NCBI RefSeq assembly: GCF_004345675.1
Contig: NZ_SLWU01000007.1
Span: forward strand, 1 to 64,000
DNA from: Caldanaerobacter subterraneus
GTDB taxonomy: Bacteria; Bacillota; Thermoanaerobacteria; Thermoanaerobacterales; Thermoanaerobacteraceae
Length of the DNA stretch: 64,000 nt
Direction of reading: 5' to 3'
A program made the position numbers and the translations under genes. Positions 1 through 12,478 of this stretch are shown one piece after another. Positions within the stretch are counted from its first letter, which is position 1, and each line of letters begins with the position of its first letter. Under the pieces are notes generated by a model. It was not told where the DNA came from. It saw only the letters and a program-made list of their open reading frames with translations, and made no database searches.

Positions 1-232
1 CCTCTTCCTGTTTTTCTTTTTCTATTTTTTTGAATTTAAATTTTGCTAATTTATGGTTTTCTAAACTTTTTTCTTTTTTTCTTTGTTTTATTTTTTCATA
101 TTCCGGATCTTCTTTAATGGCTTTTTTTACTGTAAAAAGGCTGCAGTTGAGTATTTTGGCAATTTCTTTCTGTGTCATTCCCTCTCTATGTAGTTTCTGT
201 ATTTCTTTTATAAAAATTGCTGGGTAACTCAC
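1..232 (-). CDS. Partial HTH DNA-binding protein, runs off the left edge
   Basis: An open leftward frame starts at a GTG at 232, preceded by a GGGGG ribosome site, and continues past base 1. The visible 77 residues begin VSYPAIFIKEIQKLHREGM and contain a resolvase/sigma-region-4 style helix-turn-helix (TQKEIAKILNCSLFTVKKAI, about residues 20-39). A very lysine/glutamate-rich, probably coiled tail follows. It belongs to the leftward arm of the integrative element. The function is probably regulatory or replication/transfer related; no family can be named from the fragment. An AT-rich stretch of about 125 bases (233-357) separates it from the next gene, and I see no clear promoter there. Confidence 0.6.
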   Translation of the reverse strand, partial: MSYPAIFIKEIQKLHREGMTQKEIAKILNCSLFTVKKAIKEDPEYEKIKQRKKEKSLENHKLAKFKFKKIEKEKQEE

Positions 233-357
233 CTTGTTTTCCCCCTTAAAATATACTAGTTTCTTGGGAAATACTGGTGTTTTCAACCTTTTTTGTCTCC
301 TGTTTTTGGGTACAAAAAGACTATATAAGGCTATGTGCCCTTTTGCAAAAAGCTTTG

Positions 358-630
358 TTATAGGACTTTTCTTTCTTCTGCAACCCTTTTTAGCCATTCT
401 TTGAGCAGTTCTCGGTTTATTAAAAACTTTGTACCAACCCGAAAGGCTGGGAAGCCCGATTCTGGGTTGTGGGCCAGTTCTAGCAATTTATCTCTGCCGA
501 TTCCGGTGTATCTTGCTGCTTCCTCTATTGTTAGTGTTAATTTAGGATTCATGGCTTCCTTAACTGCTTCTTTTATGGTTTCTTGTAGCTGTTCAAGGAT
601 ATTCTCTTCTACTGCTACCTTTGAAGGCAT
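358..630 (-). CDS. Excisionase-like helix-turn-helix protein
   Basis: This 90-residue protein has an acidic, probably helical N-terminus (residues 1-30). It is followed by a MerR/excisionase-type winged HTH of the HTH_17 family: LTIEEAARYTGIGRDKLLEL, then PAFRVGTKFLINRELLKEWL. The pattern (sequence choosing a helix, then a wing ending in a residue block before a final helix) is that of Xis proteins and of helper DNA-binding proteins of integrative elements. Its position in the leftward arm, opposite the integrase, fits a directionality factor that helps excision. The excisionase role is inferred from family and context. It could also be a general transcription factor of the element. Confidence 0.7.
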   Translation of the reverse strand: MPSKVAVEENILEQLQETIKEAVKEAMNPKLTLTIEEAARYTGIGRDKLLELAHNPESGFPAFRVGTKFLINRELLKEWLKRVAEERKVL

Positions 631-678: not shown

Positions 679-903
679 TTATGCAATTTCCGGTTTATTT
701 GCTTTATCGTTGTATAATTCTTCTATAGGCACTTCCAAGATTTTTGCTATTTCTGCTAAAGTTTCCGCTTTTATATTTCTTTTCCCACTTTCTATGTAAT
801 GGTAACCTGTTCCGCTTTTATATCCTATTTTTTGTGCAAGTTCTTTTTGTGACATTCTTTTTGCTTTGCGTAAAGCTCTGATTTTTTCTAAATTTACTTG
901 CAT
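679..903 (-). CDS. Cro-like XRE-family regulator
   Basis: A small Xre/HTH_3 protein of about 74 residues. The helix-turn-helix lies at the N-terminus (RALRKAKRMSQKELAQKIGY then an SGTGYHYIESGKRNIKAETL stretch), with a short tail. I place the start at the ATG at 903, because GGAGGG stands seven bases upstream. An in-frame TTG 15 bases earlier lies inside that ribosome site. It is the first gene of the leftward arm and is read from a near-perfect promoter whose spacer is an operator. That is the arrangement expected of a Cro-type partner of the divergent repressor. Function is inferred from domain and position. Confidence 0.8.
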   Translation of the reverse strand: MQVNLEKIRALRKAKRMSQKELAQKIGYKSGTGYHYIESGKRNIKAETLAEIAKILEVPIEELYNDKANKPEIA

Positions 904-954
904 AAGTAAACCCTCCAAATTGGTAGTTTGTTACCGTACTGGTAGCCTAAATAT

Positions 955-983
955 ATTATAAACTACCGAATTGGAAATGTCAA
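955..983 (-). promoter_or_regulatory. Leftward promoter of the element
   Basis: On the minus strand TTGACA (983-978) is followed after exactly 17 bases by TATAAT (960-955). The 15-base operator at 963-977 occupies the spacer almost completely, so bound repressor would block RNA polymerase. It reads into the Cro-like gene at 903. Confidence 0.85.
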
Positions 984-1012
984 TACTTAATTTTCCGATT
1001 TGGTAGTTTCAC

Positions 1013-1041
1013 TTTAAAAAAAATTTCCGTTGCGGTATAAT
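1013..1041 (+). promoter_or_regulatory. Rightward promoter of the repressor gene
   Basis: TATAAT at 1036-1041 lies 17 bases after a weak TTTAAA box (1013-1018). The operator at 1024-1038 overlaps the -10 box, and a perfect operator (1046-1060) lies just downstream. This suggests autorepression of the repressor gene. The weak -35 box makes this less certain than the leftward promoter. Confidence 0.6.
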
Positions 1042-1082
1042 TATATTACCAAAATGGTAAAAACAAAAAGGGGGATAAAAAG

Positions 1083-1505
1083 TTGTTAGGAGAGAGAATT
1101 AGGAAAGCAAGGTTAGCAAAAGGTTTGACACAAAAACAATTAGCGGAAATGTTAAATATAACAGACGCAACTGTTAATAGATATGAAAAAGGTATAAGGA
1201 AACCAGATCCTGAAATGCTTAAAGCAATAGCGGATGTTTTAAATGTATCTATTGATTATCTTCTTGGCAAAACAGATATTCCTAATATTCATATACCCGA
1301 AAGTTATTCTCAAAAGCATGAAGTTACTAAACGAGATTTAGCACAATATGAGGACTTCGTAAAGCATGTTAATGCTTTTTTTATGGATGATAAAGTTGCA
1401 GATGAAGATAAAGAAAAACTTTTTAAAGACATATCCGAACTTTTCTGGAAGGCCAAAGAAATAAACAAACAAAAATATGGAAGGAAAAAGAAAAAAGCTG
1501 ATTAG
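1083..1505 (+). CDS. XRE-family repressor of the integrative element
   Basis: A 140-residue protein with a canonical N-terminal HTH_3 domain (residues 1-60, including LTQKQLAEMLNITDATVNRY and an SIDYLLGKTD end). A charged C-terminal region follows, with no recognisable peptidase domain. The TTG at 1083 is taken as the start, because GGGGG precedes it and XRE repressors typically begin just before GERIRKAR. It is the likely lysogeny or ICE-maintenance repressor acting on the six operators upstream. The downstream ImmA/IrrE-type peptidase is the probable inactivator of this repressor, as in ICEBs1 (ImmR/ImmA). That pairing is known for the family; it is inferred here. Confidence 0.85.
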   Translation: MLGERIRKARLAKGLTQKQLAEMLNITDATVNRYEKGIRKPDPEMLKAIADVLNVSIDYLLGKTDIPNIHIPESYSQKHEVTKRDLAQYEDFVKHVNAFFMDDKVADEDKEKLFKDISELFWKAKEINKQKYGRKKKKAD

Positions 1506-1507
1506 AG

Positions 1508-1568
1508 AGGTGCTTCACATGTATGAGAATAGGTGTATTAAAAAAATTTATAAAAAAGTGAAGCACCT
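1508..1568 (+). promoter_or_regulatory. Inverted repeat hiding the ribosome site of the ImmA-like gene
   Basis: AGGTGCTTCAC at 1508-1518 is perfectly complementary to GTGAAGCACCT at 1558-1568, an 11-base stem with a 39-base loop. The left arm contains the AGG of the ribosome site, and the ATG at 1519 is the first loop position. The right arm lies inside the coding sequence. In mRNA the fold could reduce initiation. Confidence 0.6.
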
Positions 1569-1974
1569 TGTACGAGAACATGAAACAAGAGACCCTAAAA
1601 AACTTGCGGAGTATTTAGGAATTCATGTAGTATACAAAAGCTATTCTCTATATACAAAAGGTTATTTTATAAAAACCCTGCGGAATAAATTTATTATTGT
1701 TAATGATGAGCTGGATGAAAACGAAAAGAAAATCGTCCTGGCACATGAGCTGGGACATGCCGTGCTTCATTCTGCTAAGCCTATTTCTTTCATCAGAGAG
1801 TATACACTTTTCCCAGTTGGAACGTATGAAGAAGAAGCAAATATATTTGCTGCGGAATTATTGATTGATGATAGTGATATAGAAGAGTTAAAGTATCTTT
1901 CAGTATCCCACATTGCTGCTGTTCTGGGTGTTAGTGAAGGACTTGTAAAATATAAACTTTTAAAGTTTTTATAA
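1519..1974 (+). CDS. ImmA/IrrE-family metallopeptidase
   Basis: A protein of about 151 residues with the zinc-peptidase motif HELGH (AHELGHAVLH, around residue 76). It has a downstream EEANIFAAELLI segment whose glutamate is the usual third ligand, then a short winged C-terminal part (VSHIAAVLGVSEGLVKYKL). ImmA/IrrE enzymes cleave the cognate XRE repressor after a signal and induce the element. I start at the ATG at 1519 (AGAGAGG six to eight bases upstream) rather than the in-frame ATG at 1477, which lies inside the repressor gene. It lies 13 bases after the repressor stop, so the two are co-transcribed and probably work together. Confidence 0.85.
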   Translation: MYENRCIKKIYKKVKHLVREHETRDPKKLAEYLGIHVVYKSYSLYTKGYFIKTLRNKFIIVNDELDENEKKIVLAHELGHAVLHSAKPISFIREYTLFPVGTYEEEANIFAAELLIDDSDIEELKYLSVSHIAAVLGVSEGLVKYKLLKFL

Positions 1975-2000: not shown

Positions 2001-3176
2001 ATGGCTAAGAAGACGAATTATGTTAAAAACGGAAAAGAGTATTACCGTGTAACAGTTACTATTGGGAGAGATGAAAATGGAAAGCTAATACGTAAAGAAT
2101 TTTATGGAAAAACAAAAAAGGAAGCTGAAGCAAAGAAAGAAGAATATTTAAACGGAATAAGAAACGGATTGAATGTTGATTTTCAAGATGTTACTTTGGG
2201 AGATTTAATGCATACATGGCTTTTTGAAGTAGTGAGAATGTCAAGAAAGCCTGCTACGTTTGTGAAATATGAAGGACATTATAGAAATTACATAAAAAAT
2301 AGTGAACTATATGGAATGAAAATCAGTATCATAAAGTCGATACAAATACAGAGGTATTACAACAAGCTATATCAGCAAGGGAAAAGCAGTAAAACAATAA
2401 AAGCTTTGAACAATTTTTTGAAGACGTTTTTTAATTATGCAGTAGATGAAGGATATTTAGCTAAAAATCCATGCACAGGGAAGAAAATAGTTATACCCGG
2501 TACTCCAGAAGAAAAAATTGAAACAGAAATTGAAACTTTTTCTGATGAGGAAATAAAGAAAATTAAAGAAGCATTAAAAGGGCATCGTCTGAAGGCACTG
2601 TTTTTGCTGGCTTTTGGAACAGGTCTAAGGCAGGGAGAATTGTTGGGATTGAAATGGACAGATATTGACTTTGAAAAAAAGGAATTAAGGGTTCAGCGTA
2701 TGATTAAACAAGTTACTATTATTGATGAAAAAGGAAATAGAAAATATAAAACTATTGAACAAATACCAAAAACAAAAAACAGCATAAGGACAGTTCCAAT
2801 TCCATCATCACTTATACCAATGCTAAAGGAGCACAGAAATAGGCAAAGGGAAGAAAAATTAAAGGCAGGCTCAGTCTACCTCAATGATGTTGAAAAAGGA
2901 TATGTGTTTACAACAGAATTGGGCAATACTATAGATGCAAGTAACCTTTTAAAGACATATAAAAAAATTTTAAATAGAGCAGGAGTACCTTATAGAAAAT
3001 TTCATGCCATACGACACACGTATGCAACAAAACTATTTGAAAGGGGCGTACCACTCAAAACAGTATCAGAATTATTAGGGCACTCCAACATCTCTATCAC
3101 AGCAAATATTTATACTCATGTAATACCTAAACAAAAAACTAACGCAGTAGAAACACTAAATGACCTTTTTATTTAG
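2001..3176 (+). CDS. int: Tyrosine recombinase/integrase
   Basis: A 391-residue phage-type integrase. The N-terminus (residues 1-55) is an arm-type DNA-binding domain (YYRVTVTIGRDENGKLIRKE). Then come a SAM-like core-binding domain (about 65-165) and the catalytic domain (about 180-385). Catalytic residues are visible: Arg in GTGLRQGELLGL (about 211), H-x-x-R in FHAIRHTYAT (about 335-338), His in LLGHSNISIT (about 361) and the nucleophile Tyr in NIYTHV (about 371). A strong AGGAGGAG precedes the ATG. It catalyses site-specific integration and, with a Xis, excision. It is the last gene before the chromosome resumes, so attP/attR is probably immediately downstream. Confidence 0.93.
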   Translation: MAKKTNYVKNGKEYYRVTVTIGRDENGKLIRKEFYGKTKKEAEAKKEEYLNGIRNGLNVDFQDVTLGDLMHTWLFEVVRMSRKPATFVKYEGHYRNYIKNSELYGMKISIIKSIQIQRYYNKLYQQGKSSKTIKALNNFLKTFFNYAVDEGYLAKNPCTGKKIVIPGTPEEKIETEIETFSDEEIKKIKEALKGHRLKALFLLAFGTGLRQGELLGLKWTDIDFEKKELRVQRMIKQVTIIDEKGNRKYKTIEQIPKTKNSIRTVPIPSSLIPMLKEHRNRQREEKLKAGSVYLNDVEKGYVFTTELGNTIDASNLLKTYKKILNRAGVPYRKFHAIRHTYATKLFERGVPLKTVSELLGHSNISITANIYTHVIPKQKTNAVETLNDLFI

Positions 3177-3316: not shown

Positions 3317-4726
3317 TTACTTGGAAATGACATACATATTCCAAGGTATCTTATCTATAAGGCGATTCCTGTAAATAGAATCTGCTCCCATAAATATATA
3401 CCTCAAATTGTCAACATGAGGAATGTTCACTTCAATCCATATTCTATTTCTCTCTATAAAAGGTTTTGACGCTATCACGTTTGTCAGGGAATTCTCTGCT
3501 CTCTTGTACTCGTACAGTTCCCCATTTACTACCCCTAAATCTATCCTCTTTATGTCACCTGGGTCCTTGTAAAACAGCCTCATTTCAATATGGTATATCA
3601 CTTTTTTAGAAATTGGCTTTGCCGATTCTAAACCAACGTACAGCTTGTTGTCATGGTAAAAAGCTGCAAGTTTAGTCAAAGCAGCACTCCTGTAAATTTC
3701 TTCGTTTAACATACCCCCCGTATACACTTTAAGAAGGGTATGAGGCAGATCAGCATCTCTCAAATCAGGCTTTGAAGACACAACTGGTATACTTATCACA
3801 GGCTTGGTAGCAAACAACTCAGTCTTTCTGACAAATCCCATCAAAAATGGCTCCATAACTTCTGTCTGGGTTCTATACTGTTTTATTGCAGCCTGTTTCA
3901 TATTCACTTCTTTAGGAGTAAGCTCAAAAGCCTGCCATTCTGTGTTGCTGTTTTTCATGTCTACTGGAGGCAACATAGGCCTATTTTTTTCTGCCATCCA
4001 AGGAACAGGCCATTGAGGGTGGTGAACTAAAAACATGTGTTCTCTGACATTTAAATTCATAACAGTAATTGTATATCTTACAAAATTGCTCACTGCCCAG
4101 TGGTCAGGATGAATGTCATCCGCAAGAGGGTAGTATATATCAGTAGGCTTAAAATCTTTTATTATCTCGGTAAGCTCATCTACCAATGTCTGACCGGTAT
4201 AAGGAGCTCTTGGCTTATAAACCGTATCGTAAGGAGCATAGGCCACACGAGTACCGCCACTTACGCGGGGCCTGTTATTATCCCAATATTGGCTCCACAA
4301 AAACCTCGTGCTTCCATCCGCAAATCCCAAAAAAATTAAATCTTTTCTGGGAAGCCCGAGAATTCTCATTGCAGCAATGCTTTCCTGCTGGCGAGCCAAT
4401 CCCAGTTTGTAAAAATCTCTAGGAGTAGGATTCTTTTTTCCGCAAAAAACCATTGCAGCTTTTTTATAGCTTTCACCACTTGTGACAACCACCACTTTTA
4501 CAGGCCTTTTTAATTCAACCGCTCTTTGGATAACACCTGCCATACCCAGAGTTTCATCGTCCGGATGAGGAACTATAATAAGTATTCTCTGCCCTGGGTC
4601 GTCAAAAGTAGGCACGGTAGCTTTTTCTGTGAAATTTGCAATAGCCATTCCCCAGTTCATTATATAGGAAACTCCGATAAGCAAAGCAGTAAATAAAGAA
4701 AAATATATAGTTCGCCTTGTAATCAT
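3317..4726 (-). CDS. PIG-L family deacetylase, membrane-anchored
   Basis: A protein of about 469 residues. An N-terminal hydrophobic segment (about residues 5-25) would anchor it or act as a signal. The LmbE/PIG-L fold follows, with the zinc motif PHPDDE (ILIIVPHPDDETLG, about residues 45-58) and the downstream HPDH (DDIHPDHWAVSN). The C-terminal 150 residues form a separate beta-rich region. The family hydrolyses N-acetyl groups from GlcNAc-type sugars, so a surface glycan substrate is plausible but not shown. The start is taken at the ATG at 4726, where ATGGAGG lies eight bases upstream, rather than the ATG at 4741. It transcribes away from the dipeptidase gene. Confidence 0.8.
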   Translation of the reverse strand: MITRRTIYFSLFTALLIGVSYIMNWGMAIANFTEKATVPTFDDPGQRILIIVPHPDDETLGMAGVIQRAVELKRPVKVVVVTSGESYKKAAMVFCGKKNPTPRDFYKLGLARQQESIAAMRILGLPRKDLIFLGFADGSTRFLWSQYWDNNRPRVSGGTRVAYAPYDTVYKPRAPYTGQTLVDELTEIIKDFKPTDIYYPLADDIHPDHWAVSNFVRYTITVMNLNVREHMFLVHHPQWPVPWMAEKNRPMLPPVDMKNSNTEWQAFELTPKEVNMKQAAIKQYRTQTEVMEPFLMGFVRKTELFATKPVISIPVVSSKPDLRDADLPHTLLKVYTGGMLNEEIYRSAALTKLAAFYHDNKLYVGLESAKPISKKVIYHIEMRLFYKDPGDIKRIDLGVVNGELYEYKRAENSLTNVIASKPFIERNRIWIEVNIPHVDNLRYIFMGADSIYRNRLIDKIPWNMYVISK

Positions 4727-9616: not shown

Positions 9617-9726
9617 ATTACTCCAAATTTAATTGTGCTTATAGCTCATTATAATAACCACTTCTTCATTGCCAATAAACGCGTAGACCTTTTTCAAATA
9701 GTTACTCTCCACTCCGTACATGGTGA

Positions 9727-9755
9727 CAGACAAAAGGGACGGTTCCTTTTGTCTG
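9727..9755. repeat. REP-like palindromic repeat, copy 2
   Basis: CAGACAAAAGG (9727-9737) pairs with CCTTTTGTCTG (9745-9755) around GGACGGTT-like loop sequence. It shares GACA(A)AGGGACGGTTC with the copy at 7332. It lies directly after the stop codon of the his operon and may help end that transcript, but there is no T-tract in that direction. Confidence 0.7.
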
Positions 9756-9756
9756 A

Positions 9757-10374
9757 TTATTTTTTATATCGCCTTTCAAGTTCATTGTATATGTCATTTA
9801 ATGTAATATTTTTCTCAACCAAAAGCACCATCAAATGATAAATTAGGTCAGATACTTCATACACTATCTCATCTTTTGAATCATTTTTCGAAGCGATAAC
9901 CACTTCTGTAGCTTCCTCTCCAACTTTTTTTAATATTTTGTCTATGCCTTTTTCAAAGAGATAGTTTGTATAGGATCCTTCTACAGGGTTTATTTTTCTG
10001 CCTTTTATCCTTTCATAAAGCTTATTTAGAATCTCTATGCCATCTTCAGTTTCTTCATCGAAACTTCTATAAAAACAGCTTATATTGCCTGTATGACAGG
10101 CAGGGCCTTTTGCTTCTACTTGAATTAAAAGAGCATCTTCATCGCAGTCATAAAATATCTTTTTTACCTTCTGCGTATTCCCTGAGGTTTCCCCCTTGTG
10201 CCATATCTTGCCTCTGCTTCTACTAAAAAAATATGTCTCTCCTTTTTCTAATGTAAGCTTCAAACTCTCCTCATTCATATATGCAAGCATTAAAACCTGC
10301 TTTGTGTAATAATCTTGCACAATTGCCGGTATAAGACCCTTTTCGTCAAACTTAAGCTCTTTTATGTCAATCAT
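9757..10374 (-). CDS. hisIE: Bifunctional phosphoribosyl-AMP cyclohydrolase / phosphoribosyl-ATP pyrophosphatase
   Basis: A 205-residue fusion. Residues 1-110 are the HisI cyclohydrolase ([33 protein letters not shown] and the zinc ligands in [13 protein letters not shown]). Residues 115-205 are the all-helical HisE pyrophosphatase ([30 protein letters not shown]). It performs steps 2 and 3 of histidine synthesis. It is the last gene of the leftward operon, 17 bases after hisF. The fusion order I-E is the usual bacterial one. Confidence 0.96.
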
Positions 10375-10391
10375 CCTCTACATCCTTTCTC

Positions 10392-11153
10392 CTACAATCT
10401 TACCGGTATACCCTCATCCTTTAAATATCTTTTCAACTCTTTTATATCAAGCTCTCCATAGTGAAATACAGAAGCAGCCAAAGCTGCATCAGCTTTTCCT
10501 TGTGTAAACACCTCTTTAAAATGCTCGGGTTTCCCTGCTCCTCCTGATGCTATAACTGGAATATTCACAGCTTCACTTATAAGCCTTGTAAGTTCAATAT
10601 CATATCCATCCTTTGTCCCGTCTTTATCCATACTTGTTAAAAGTATTTCTCCTGCACCCAAATCTTTCACCTTTTTAGCCCACTCAACAGCATCAAGTCC
10701 TGTGTTTATTCTCCCTCCATTTATATACACATTGTAGCCTGTGCCATCTGGTCTCTTTTTAGCGTCAATTGCCACAACAACACACTGGCTCCCAAACCTC
10801 AAAGCCGCCTGACGAATAAGTGTTGGCTGTTTTACCGCCTGTGTATTTATAGAAACCTTATCAGCTCCTGCTTTTAAAACTTCTCTTATGTCATCAATAT
10901 CAGAAATTCCTCCCCCTACAGTCAAAGGGATAAACACCTTTTCTGATGTTCTCTTTACAACATCTATCATAATTTTTCTTTTTTCATAGGAAGCTGTAAT
11001 ATCCAGAAATACAAGCTCATCGGCTCCTAATTCATTGTACCTTTCAGCTATTTCAACAGGGTCTCCAGCATCCTTTAAATTTACAAAATTTATTCCTTTT
11101 ACTACTCTTCCATCTTTAACATCCAGACATGGTATTATTCTCTTTGCAAGCAT
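10392..11153 (-). CDS. hisF: Imidazole glycerol phosphate synthase, cyclase subunit
   Basis: A 253-residue (beta-alpha)8 barrel. The catalytic aspartates lie in [15 protein letters not shown] (near residue 11) and [15 protein letters not shown] (second half). The phosphate-binding motifs GGGI and SGGAG sit at the end of the half-barrels. It pairs with HisH, using the ammonia HisH makes to form IGP and AICAR. The gene starts exactly where hisA ends (one base apart), so the two are translationally linked. Confidence 0.97.
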
Positions 11154-11876
11154 TTAAATTCCCTCTCTTTCTAATTCCAGCAATGCAGCTTTTAAGTCTA
11201 TCATACCAGTGTACAAGGCCTTCCCAATAATAGCACCAGTAACTCCCATATCTTTAAGCCTTTTTAAATCTTCAATTGAAGATATGCCTCCTGAAGCTAT
11301 TATTTCTACTCCTACCTTTAGCATATCCTTTAAAGCTTCAAAATTTGGCCCATGAAGTGTGCCATCTTTTGAAATATCAGTAAAAATTATTGTCTTTATC
11401 CCTATCTCTTTTATCTTCTCAGCCAACTCAGTATCCTTTATTTTAGTCCTTTCAAGCCATCCACTTACAGCAACTTCTCTTTTTTTTGAATCAATTCCCA
11501 CTATAGTCTTTTCTCCATAATGTGAGACAGAATAAAGAAGAAGGTCTTTATCATATATTGCAGCAGAACCTAAAATAATGTACGATACTCCAATTGAAAA
11601 AAGATAATCTAAAGCCTCTCTATTTCTTACTCCTCCCCCTACCTCTATTTCTACATTGCAGCAGTTCACAATCTTTTCAATAACCCCTGCATTTACCAGA
11701 TATCCCTGCCTTGCCCCATCCAGATCCACTACATGAATTCTCTTTGCACCACACTCTTGCCACATCTTAGCCACATCTGCAGGATTGTCATAATATACTT
11801 CTTTTGAATCAAAATTCCCTTTTGTGAGTCTTACACATTTCCCATCCAATATGTCAATTGCAGGTATTACAAGCAT
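11154..11876 (-). CDS. hisA: ProFAR isomerase
   Basis: A 240-residue barrel homologous to HisF. It has the N-terminal catalytic aspartate in [17 protein letters not shown], the second in [13 protein letters not shown], and phosphate motifs GGGVR and SGGIS. It carries out the Amadori rearrangement of ProFAR to PRFAR. Its start overlaps the end of hisH by ten bases. The C-terminal [13 protein letters not shown] is typical for HisA. Confidence 0.97.
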
Positions 11877-12478
11877 TTTATCATCTCTCCAAAATTTTTT
11901 AAAATTTTAAGCCCTGTCTCTCCGCTTTTTTCTGGATGAAACTGACAGGAAAAAACATTGTCTTTAATAATGACAGCTGGAATTTCTATCCCATATTCAG
12001 TAACTGCGTATTCAAAATCTTTTTCATTGCCATTTACATAATAAGAATGGACAAAATACACATAATCTCCATTTTTTATTCCTTTAAGAAATGGTGTGTC
12101 TTTTTTTATGGTCAAACTGTTCCACCCTACATGGGGGATTTTATTTCCTTTAGGAAGTCCTACAACATTGCCTTTAAATATTTTAAGCCCCTCTGTCTTG
12201 CCTCCCTCAAAACTTTTCTCAAATAAAAGCTGCATTCCCAAGCATATTCCCAAAAAAGGCTTTCCCTTTTCAATGTGTATTTTTATCTCTTCAGCCATAC
12301 CTGTTTTGATTAAAACCCTGATGGCATCTGGAAAGGCTCCAACTCCGGGAAGTATCAAGGCCTCAAAATTTTTTATTTCTTTTGCATCACTTGTAATCTT
12401 CGCATCGTATCCCACGTATTTTAAAGCTTTTTCAACGCTTCTCAAATTTCCCATTCCATAATCTATAATGCCTATCAA
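11867..12478 (-). CDS. hisH: Imidazole glycerol phosphate synthase, glutaminase subunit
   Basis: A 203-residue class I glutamine amidotransferase. The nucleophile cysteine lies in FLGICLGMQLLFE (about residue 80), with the oxyanion strand in ILPGVGAFP and the His/Glu dyad in CQFHPEKSG near the C-terminus. It makes ammonia for HisF. All catalytic residues are present. It lies 18 bases after hisB and overlaps hisA. Confidence 0.96.
   Translation of the reverse strand: MIGIIDYGMGNLRSVEKALKYVGYDAKITSDAKEIKNFEALILPGVGAFPDAIRVLIKTGMAEEIKIHIEKGKPFLGICLGMQLLFEKSFEGGKTEGLKIFKGNVVGLPKGNKIPHVGWNSLTIKKDTPFLKGIKNGDYVYFVHSYYVNGNEKDFEYAVTEYGIEIPAVIIKDNVFSCQFHPEKSGETGLKILKNFGEMIKCL

Follow-up and report, generated by a model that had tools for sequence, protein, structure and literature searches.

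Switches of this kind usually pair a strong promoter of the lytic type with a weak repressor promoter that possibly needs activation, and the mosaicism of immunity regions in phages has long been known. The repressor ImmR of ICEBs1 is described as having six sites, three per promoter (PMC4207663, PMC8960796). SetR of SXT/R391 is described as having four operators (OL and O1-O3) in the gap before its own gene (PMC4542580). The locus presented here is very likely the immunity switch of an integrative, and very probably conjugative, element of the ImmR/ImmA type, with a mechanism that would employ a repressor, a peptidase and a Cro-like protein.

Gene order and limits of the element

The window, which is the whole stretch of DNA that was analysed, comprises bases 1-64000 of contig C7; the draft genome to which this contig belongs has 2.58 Mb in 79 contigs. 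The element is truncated at the left because the window begins at the contig end. From the contig break rightwards, the features are:

1-235, minus strand: HTH protein, the outermost gene
358-630, minus strand: excisionase-like (xis) protein, 90 residues (Tn916-Xis, 1e-8; TIGR01764, 5.5e-15)
679-903, minus strand: Cro-like HTH protein, 74 residues (open reading frame; HTH_3, 2e-14)
Between the Cro-like gene and the repressor gene: gap of 179 bp holding the six sites
1083-1505, plus strand: ImmR-like XRE repressor, 140 residues, with an HTH at about 1-66 and a C-terminal part at 67-140 (HTH_3, 5e-22; ICEBs1 ImmR 7t8i, E 7e-12)
1477-1974, plus strand: ImmA-like M78 metallopeptidase with HELGH in its translation (Peptidase_M78 PF06114, 4e-25)
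2001-3176, plus strand: tyrosine integrase, 391 residues (Phage_integrase, 2e-33)

As judged from DNA comparisons, the element probably ends near 3321-3332. DNA similar to a related element in genome G009 extends as far as 3321, and from 3332-3333 onwards the window resembles the chromosomes of eight of nine other genomes of the genus; the ninth, G009, matches the element part only.

Next to the end of the window element is the 3' end of a gene that, by eye, is PIG-L-like; for the G009 element, inspection by eye suggests a border at the 3' end of a tRNA gene (L198 3200-3420). The two elements have related integrases and apparently different target sites. A second divergent pair of XRE-like genes, possibly the switch of another mobile element, is present on a short contig of the same genome (G000:C59:2619-3246).

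Relation to conjugative elements

In its integrase, its peptidase, the C-terminal part of its repressor and its xis, the G009 element is of the same type as the window. Beyond xis come genes for a helicase, a DHH protein and a sigma factor, and ~13 kb from the switch a T4SS pilin and PrgI are encoded. A frameshift interrupts the repressor gene of this element in its C-terminal part (L198 5142-5528), so this copy may be deregulated. The element in genome G007 is on a 9-kb contig, on which no transfer genes were seen; its matches to the G009 element, in blocks of 69-85%, are the reason for treating it as a relative.

Contig C28 of the window's own genome has a PrgI gene that scores over the cut-off and a VirB4-like ATPase whose best model is below the curated cut-off. 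The contig aligns with the G009 transfer region in pieces, at 65-80% identity. C28 and the left end of C7 were compared for an exact overlap of their ends and none was found. The two are likely to belong to one element, although this link to transfer genes has to be inferred because the window starts at a contig end. The preliminary description of this DNA spoke of a small integrative element. Neither the size nor a non-conjugative nature finds support, because the closest element with enough sequence, that of G009, carries conjugation genes, and at such a distance from the switch.

The putative operator sites and promoters

The six putative operators are 15 bp long and were scored at the 10 half-site positions against YTACC-N5-GGTAR. 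They are listed here with the two promoters; 'invariant' refers to four aligned gaps:

912-926: putative site 1, CCTCC-AAATT-GGTAG, 8/10 positions; CC and GGTA invariant
931-945: putative site 2, TTACC-GTACT-GGTAG, directly downstream of the leftward -10, 10/10; CC and GGTAG invariant
963-977: putative site 3, CTACC-GAATT-GGAAA, within the 17-base spacer of the leftward promoter, 9/10; CTACC and GG invariant
992-1006: putative site 4, TTTCC-GATTT-GGTAG, between both -35 regions, 9/10; GGTAG invariant, left half poor in G014
1024-1038: putative site 5, TTTCC-GTTGC-GGTAT, over the rightward -10, 8/10; kept in L119, sub-threshold in G014 and L121
1046-1060: putative site 6, TTACC-AAAAT-GGTAA, at the expected start of the repressor transcript, 10/10; both half-sites invariant
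955-983, minus strand: leftward promoter TTGACA-17-TATAAT, for cro, xis and onward genes as a presumed operon; 12/12 consensus, both hexamers invariant
1013-1041, plus strand: rightward (repressor) promoter TTTAAA-17-TATAAT with a weak -35; 10/12, -10 invariant, -35 not

The site centres are at 919, 938, 970, 999, 1031 and 1053, which gives spacings of 19, 32, 29, 32 and 22. The layout is as the preliminary description had it: the array is flanked by the genes of the 74-residue Cro-like protein and the 140-residue XRE repressor, one site (963-977) is in the 17-base spacer of the TTGACA/TATAAT promoter (983..955), and one (1024-1038) is over the -10 of the opposite promoter (1013..1041). The same description gave all six sites the form TTACC-N5-GGTAA. 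Six sites are indeed present, in a number and clustering beyond chance, but to call them matching is an overstatement, since the exact form occurs in one of the six (1046-1060) and the full YTACC-N5-GGTAR in two.

At threshold 8 the gap has six sites, whereas 5000 dinucleotide shuffles of the gap have 0.40 on average and 3 at most, none of them reaching six. Other 179-bp stretches of the window hold no more than 3 sites at this threshold. Threshold 7 is weak: 71 of the 5000 shuffles get six sites and another stretch of the window also has six. The pattern had been fixed beforehand by the preliminary description, and a palindrome search with no preset pattern was therefore added. In the window it chose the same palindrome and recovered five of the six sites, a result equalled by none of 60 shuffles. 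Genome-wide, the strict pattern is at chance level, being found at 10 places (two of them in the array) versus 9 for a reversed control; with two mismatches allowed, there are fewer occurrences than in the control (346 versus 647). A random frequency elsewhere in the genome had been named beforehand as an argument against the sites and, taken literally, this is what the scan gave. The signal, however, lies in the cluster. The evidence is therefore the cluster and its conservation, not the rarity of the pattern. When 20 genomes of the family were searched for similarity to the gap, no other copy of the array turned up in the window's own genome, where the gap matches only itself; the search also returned a 29-base match in G008 and the expected match in G014.

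Conservation of the array in relatives

Out of 197 loci, 190 were scored (L001-L007 were left out; L008 is the window itself). The same HTH type, defined as at least 47 of 62 residues, is found at the window's own locus, L118 and L119, L011 (genome G014), L121 and L120. L120 has sequence only from within the repressor onwards, which leaves it out of the count. With 99% identity over 3539 bases, L118 and L119 represent one phage type and were counted as one relative; L118 is assigned to a tailed phage because its contig has tape measure, distal tail, holin and amidase genes. This phage type has six sites at offsets -172, -153, -120, -91, -60 and -38, compared to -171, -152, -120, -91, -59 and -37 in the window. 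G014 and L121 have five sites each. Site 5 is the least conserved, being sub-threshold in two of the three independent relatives, and site 4 has just one good half left in G014. The 184 loci with other HTHs have a mean of 0.34 hits, and three or more hits at threshold 8 occur in six of them: L035, the mutually near-identical L122 and L127, and L124-L126, which have the same sites. The palindromes of these six are mostly related but different. Conservation in three independent relatives, as read from the aligned DNA, favours function over chance.

Two Clostridia loci, L048 (2919-2964) and L097 (1466-1511), each have two CTACC-N5-GGTAR sites 31 bp apart before an XRE gene whose recognition helix differs: the palindrome is the same, the protein apparently another. 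As these XRE loci are unrelated, the motif is not exclusive to the window repressor. ImmR-like phage loci (L122, L127, L246, L247, L252 and L257) have repeats of palindromes that keep the 5-5-5 shape but differ in their letters. Not all of these are clear: 0, 1, 12 and 0 of 60 shuffles were as good for L246, L247, L252 and L257, respectively.

A scan of viral contigs for the spaced pattern gave two stretches, on L244, which is L121's own contig, and on L245. The latter is taken as chance because it is inside coding sequence and lacks these genes. Marinitoga camini virus 1 is 69% identical in DNA over 184 bases of the repressor HTH, but no site in its examined stretch reaches a score of 9.

Close to its operator array, L244 carries a row of genes (9691-11952): one is RAMP-like (E 4.8e-4, narrowly missing the curated cut-off), the next has no Pfam match and another is PAPS reductase/CysH-like. 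DnaB, RusA and PD-(D/E)XK genes are close by. We take the row to resemble type IV CRISPR sets with cysH.

Proposed mechanism

The reading of the locus as a switch is based on the sites, the promoter-like hexamers, the gene order and the conservation in relatives, from which we infer all binding, activation, cleavage, transcript starts and protein-site preferences. Dimers of the 140-residue repressor would bind the six 15-bp palindromes. On sites 1-3 the repressor would turn off the strong leftward promoter and, with it, cro, xis and probably the transfer genes. On sites 4-6 it would control its own weak promoter, with activation at low repressor levels, most plausibly from site 4, and repression from sites 5 and 6 at high levels. 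Removal of the repressor by the ImmA-like peptidase would switch the element on. The Cro-like protein, the product of the first gene of the leftward operon, may then keep the repressor promoter off via the same sites. That Cro shares the sites is not evident from the sequence, because its recognition helix and that of the repressor differ by eye. Small HTH genes occupy the place of the Cro-like gene in both related elements examined, G009 and G007.

The last step is where this mechanism meets its most serious competitor. The repressor alone might use the six sites, with the Cro-like protein acting elsewhere or as an antirepressor, and there would be no true competition of the CI/Cro type. The difference between the recognition helices, SGTGYHYIE and TDATVNRYE (placed by eye), agrees with this, and the available portions of the ICEBs1 accounts describe ImmR and ImmA and name no Cro. 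The Cro-like gene nevertheless travels with the operators, 43-52 of its 74 residues being identical in three operator-sharing relatives and only 23 and 26 in two others, and a second conserved palindrome is not visible by eye in the alignment of the four gaps. We consider action of the repressor alone possible but rather doubtful. Divergent cro and repressor genes across multiple operators would also suit a switch of the lambda CI/Cro type, in which the repressor cleaves itself under stimulation by RecA. Such a switch is very improbable: a Pfam scan of the repressor at E 0.01 found no S24 self-cleavage family, an absence that disfavours the lambda CI type, an M78 peptidase is adjacent, and the closest solved chain is ImmR. 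(A remnant resembling S24 was suspected from the letters of the L121 repressor, but Pfam did not support it.) Least probable of all is that the palindromes arose by chance in AT-rich DNA. Single strict sites do occur genome-wide at chance level, and at threshold 7 the gap is equalled by 71 of its 5000 shuffles and by one other stretch of the window. Clustering at threshold 8 together with positional conservation in three independent relatives rules out chance for practical purposes.

Mosaic structure of the immunity region

The similarity between the window and its relatives changes abruptly along the locus. The G009 element is 77% identical in DNA to the window in xis, 79% in the C-terminal half of the repressor, 88% in immA, 84% in int and 66% in the outermost HTH gene. 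The corresponding values for the G007 element are 89% in xis, 79% in the C-terminal half of the repressor, 79% in immA and 56% in the outermost HTH gene; its int scored 57%, but the contig ends inside this gene. The cro gene, the gap and the HTH are only 44-59% identical to those of G009 and G007, compared to 73, 66 and 81%, respectively, for L119. The blastn alignments of this block are single and of ~73% identity for L119 (675-1516), L121 (713-1259) and G014 (694-1280), whereas G009 gives just a 56-base piece of the HTH (73%) and the G007 block begins at 1182. In a profile with 60-base steps, identity to G009 and G007 falls at ~630-690 and recovers at ~1290-1350; that to G014 and L121 does the reverse. 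The region so delimited is:

650-1310, edges approximate: putative exchangeable specificity cassette of cro, the six operators and the repressor HTH (identity profile, blastn blocks)

The proteins follow the same pattern. The window repressor is identical to that of L119 at 58 of the 66 residues of its HTH and at 54 of the 74 residues of the rest. The two counts are 54 and 12 for G014 and 49 and 12 for L121, as opposed to 31 and 55 for G007, 26 and 52 for L010 and 25 and 53 for L038. Out of the 74 residues of Cro, 50 are identical in L119, 52 in G014 and 43 in L121, versus 23 in G007 and 26 in G009. L010 and L038, which have the same C-terminal half and another HTH, have palindromes of their own, TTGCC-N4-GGCAA and GTGAA-N5-TTCAC (0 of 60 shuffles as good in each case). 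The palindromes of G009 (1 of 60 shuffles) and of G007 (three copies of a short motif) are less clear. Because the C-terminal half is kept with other HTHs and other palindromes, specificity seems to move as a cassette.

The three loci that share the block with the window (L119, G014 and L121) are phage or phage-like: a Gam-like gene lies close to the switch in L119, an ERF gene in G014 and a Bro-N gene in L121. PF03354, the one terminase model used, had no hit in the three viral fragments and one in genome G014, on another contig.

We give an even chance to the proposal that cro, the six operators and the repressor HTH form a portable immunity cassette, which may have been exchanged, in either direction, between tailed phages and conjugative elements. 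Its junctions would be just outside cro and in the repressor linker, and the C-terminal half would stay with its ImmA partner. The same mosaic could have arisen with no exchange of a cassette, by faster divergence of the HTH, the operators and cro in one lineage. Selection on immunity can make specificity regions diverge fast, just a handful of loci were compared, and the region is not wholly alien to the related elements, given the 56-base piece that still aligns with G009 and the reach of the G007 block into the HTH. Such divergence is nonetheless unlikely, because the edges in the identity profile are sharp, the HTH and C-terminal identities run opposite ways among relatives, and cro, the gap and the HTH resemble those of L119 far more than those of G009 and G007, elements that share xis, the C-terminal part of the repressor and immA with the window at 77-89%. 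A search of the literature on module exchange between phages and conjugative elements or on swaps of repressor domains, which included the available part of PMC6550527 and left most subscription journals outside, found no paper on this case.

If the cassette is real, a conjugative element would have its immunity specificity in common with prophages that are otherwise unrelated to it, and each would exclude the other, while two conjugative elements that differ in this block alone could coexist. Natural hybrids, having the same C-terminal half and peptidase with a different HTH, Cro and palindrome, or the reverse, make the separability of immunity specificity and induction testable, as well as the idea that phages compete with conjugative elements through an immunity code common to both.

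Comparison with known systems

The preliminary description compared the locus to the lambda switch, and part of this likeness holds. As in lambda, a repressor and a Cro face each other across several palindromic operators, here repeated three near each promoter, and a strong lytic promoter is combined with a weak repressor promoter. The Cro-like HTH gene is the first of the presumed leftward operon. Unlike lambda, where the operators are in two regions, OR and OL, the window has all six sites in one 150-bp gap, its repressor shows no S24 domain, and a peptidase gene adjoins the repressor gene.

The system of SetR also belongs to a conjugative element and has a repressor with several operators before its own gene. 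It is described as lambda CI-like and has four sites, and the available text mentions no ImmA-like peptidase (PMC4542580). Rco of pLS20 is described as an XRE regulator that controls conjugation from divergent promoters (PMC4207663). It differs in having two operators with proposed DNA looping, and in being relieved by Rap sequestration rather than by a peptidase (PMC8014075).

The nearest parallel is ImmR/ImmA of ICEBs1. The best solved relative of the window repressor is the DNA-binding domain of ICEBs1 ImmR (7t8i, E 7.4e-12, residues 2-63). Neither the loci nor the matches listed for ICEBs1 ImmR included ICEBs1 itself in recognisable form. In both elements an XRE repressor is followed in the same direction by an M78 peptidase and an integrase, and xis is divergent. 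Both appear to have six sites, three near each of two divergent promoters, the ICEBs1 promoters being described as ~130 bp apart (PMC4207663, PMC8960796). The number of sites had been thought unusual for an integrative element, which is not so: with six sites, three per promoter, already published for ImmR, both the number and the grouping are those of the known ICEBs1 design. The window is distinguished from ICEBs1 by palindromes with letters of the TTACC type and by a Cro-like gene ahead of xis. It offers a compact, conserved operator array for a repressor of the ImmR type, with two promoters and six sites that are all readable from the sequence. Nothing in the mechanism is outside known kinds, and the Cro-like gene is a feature added to them.
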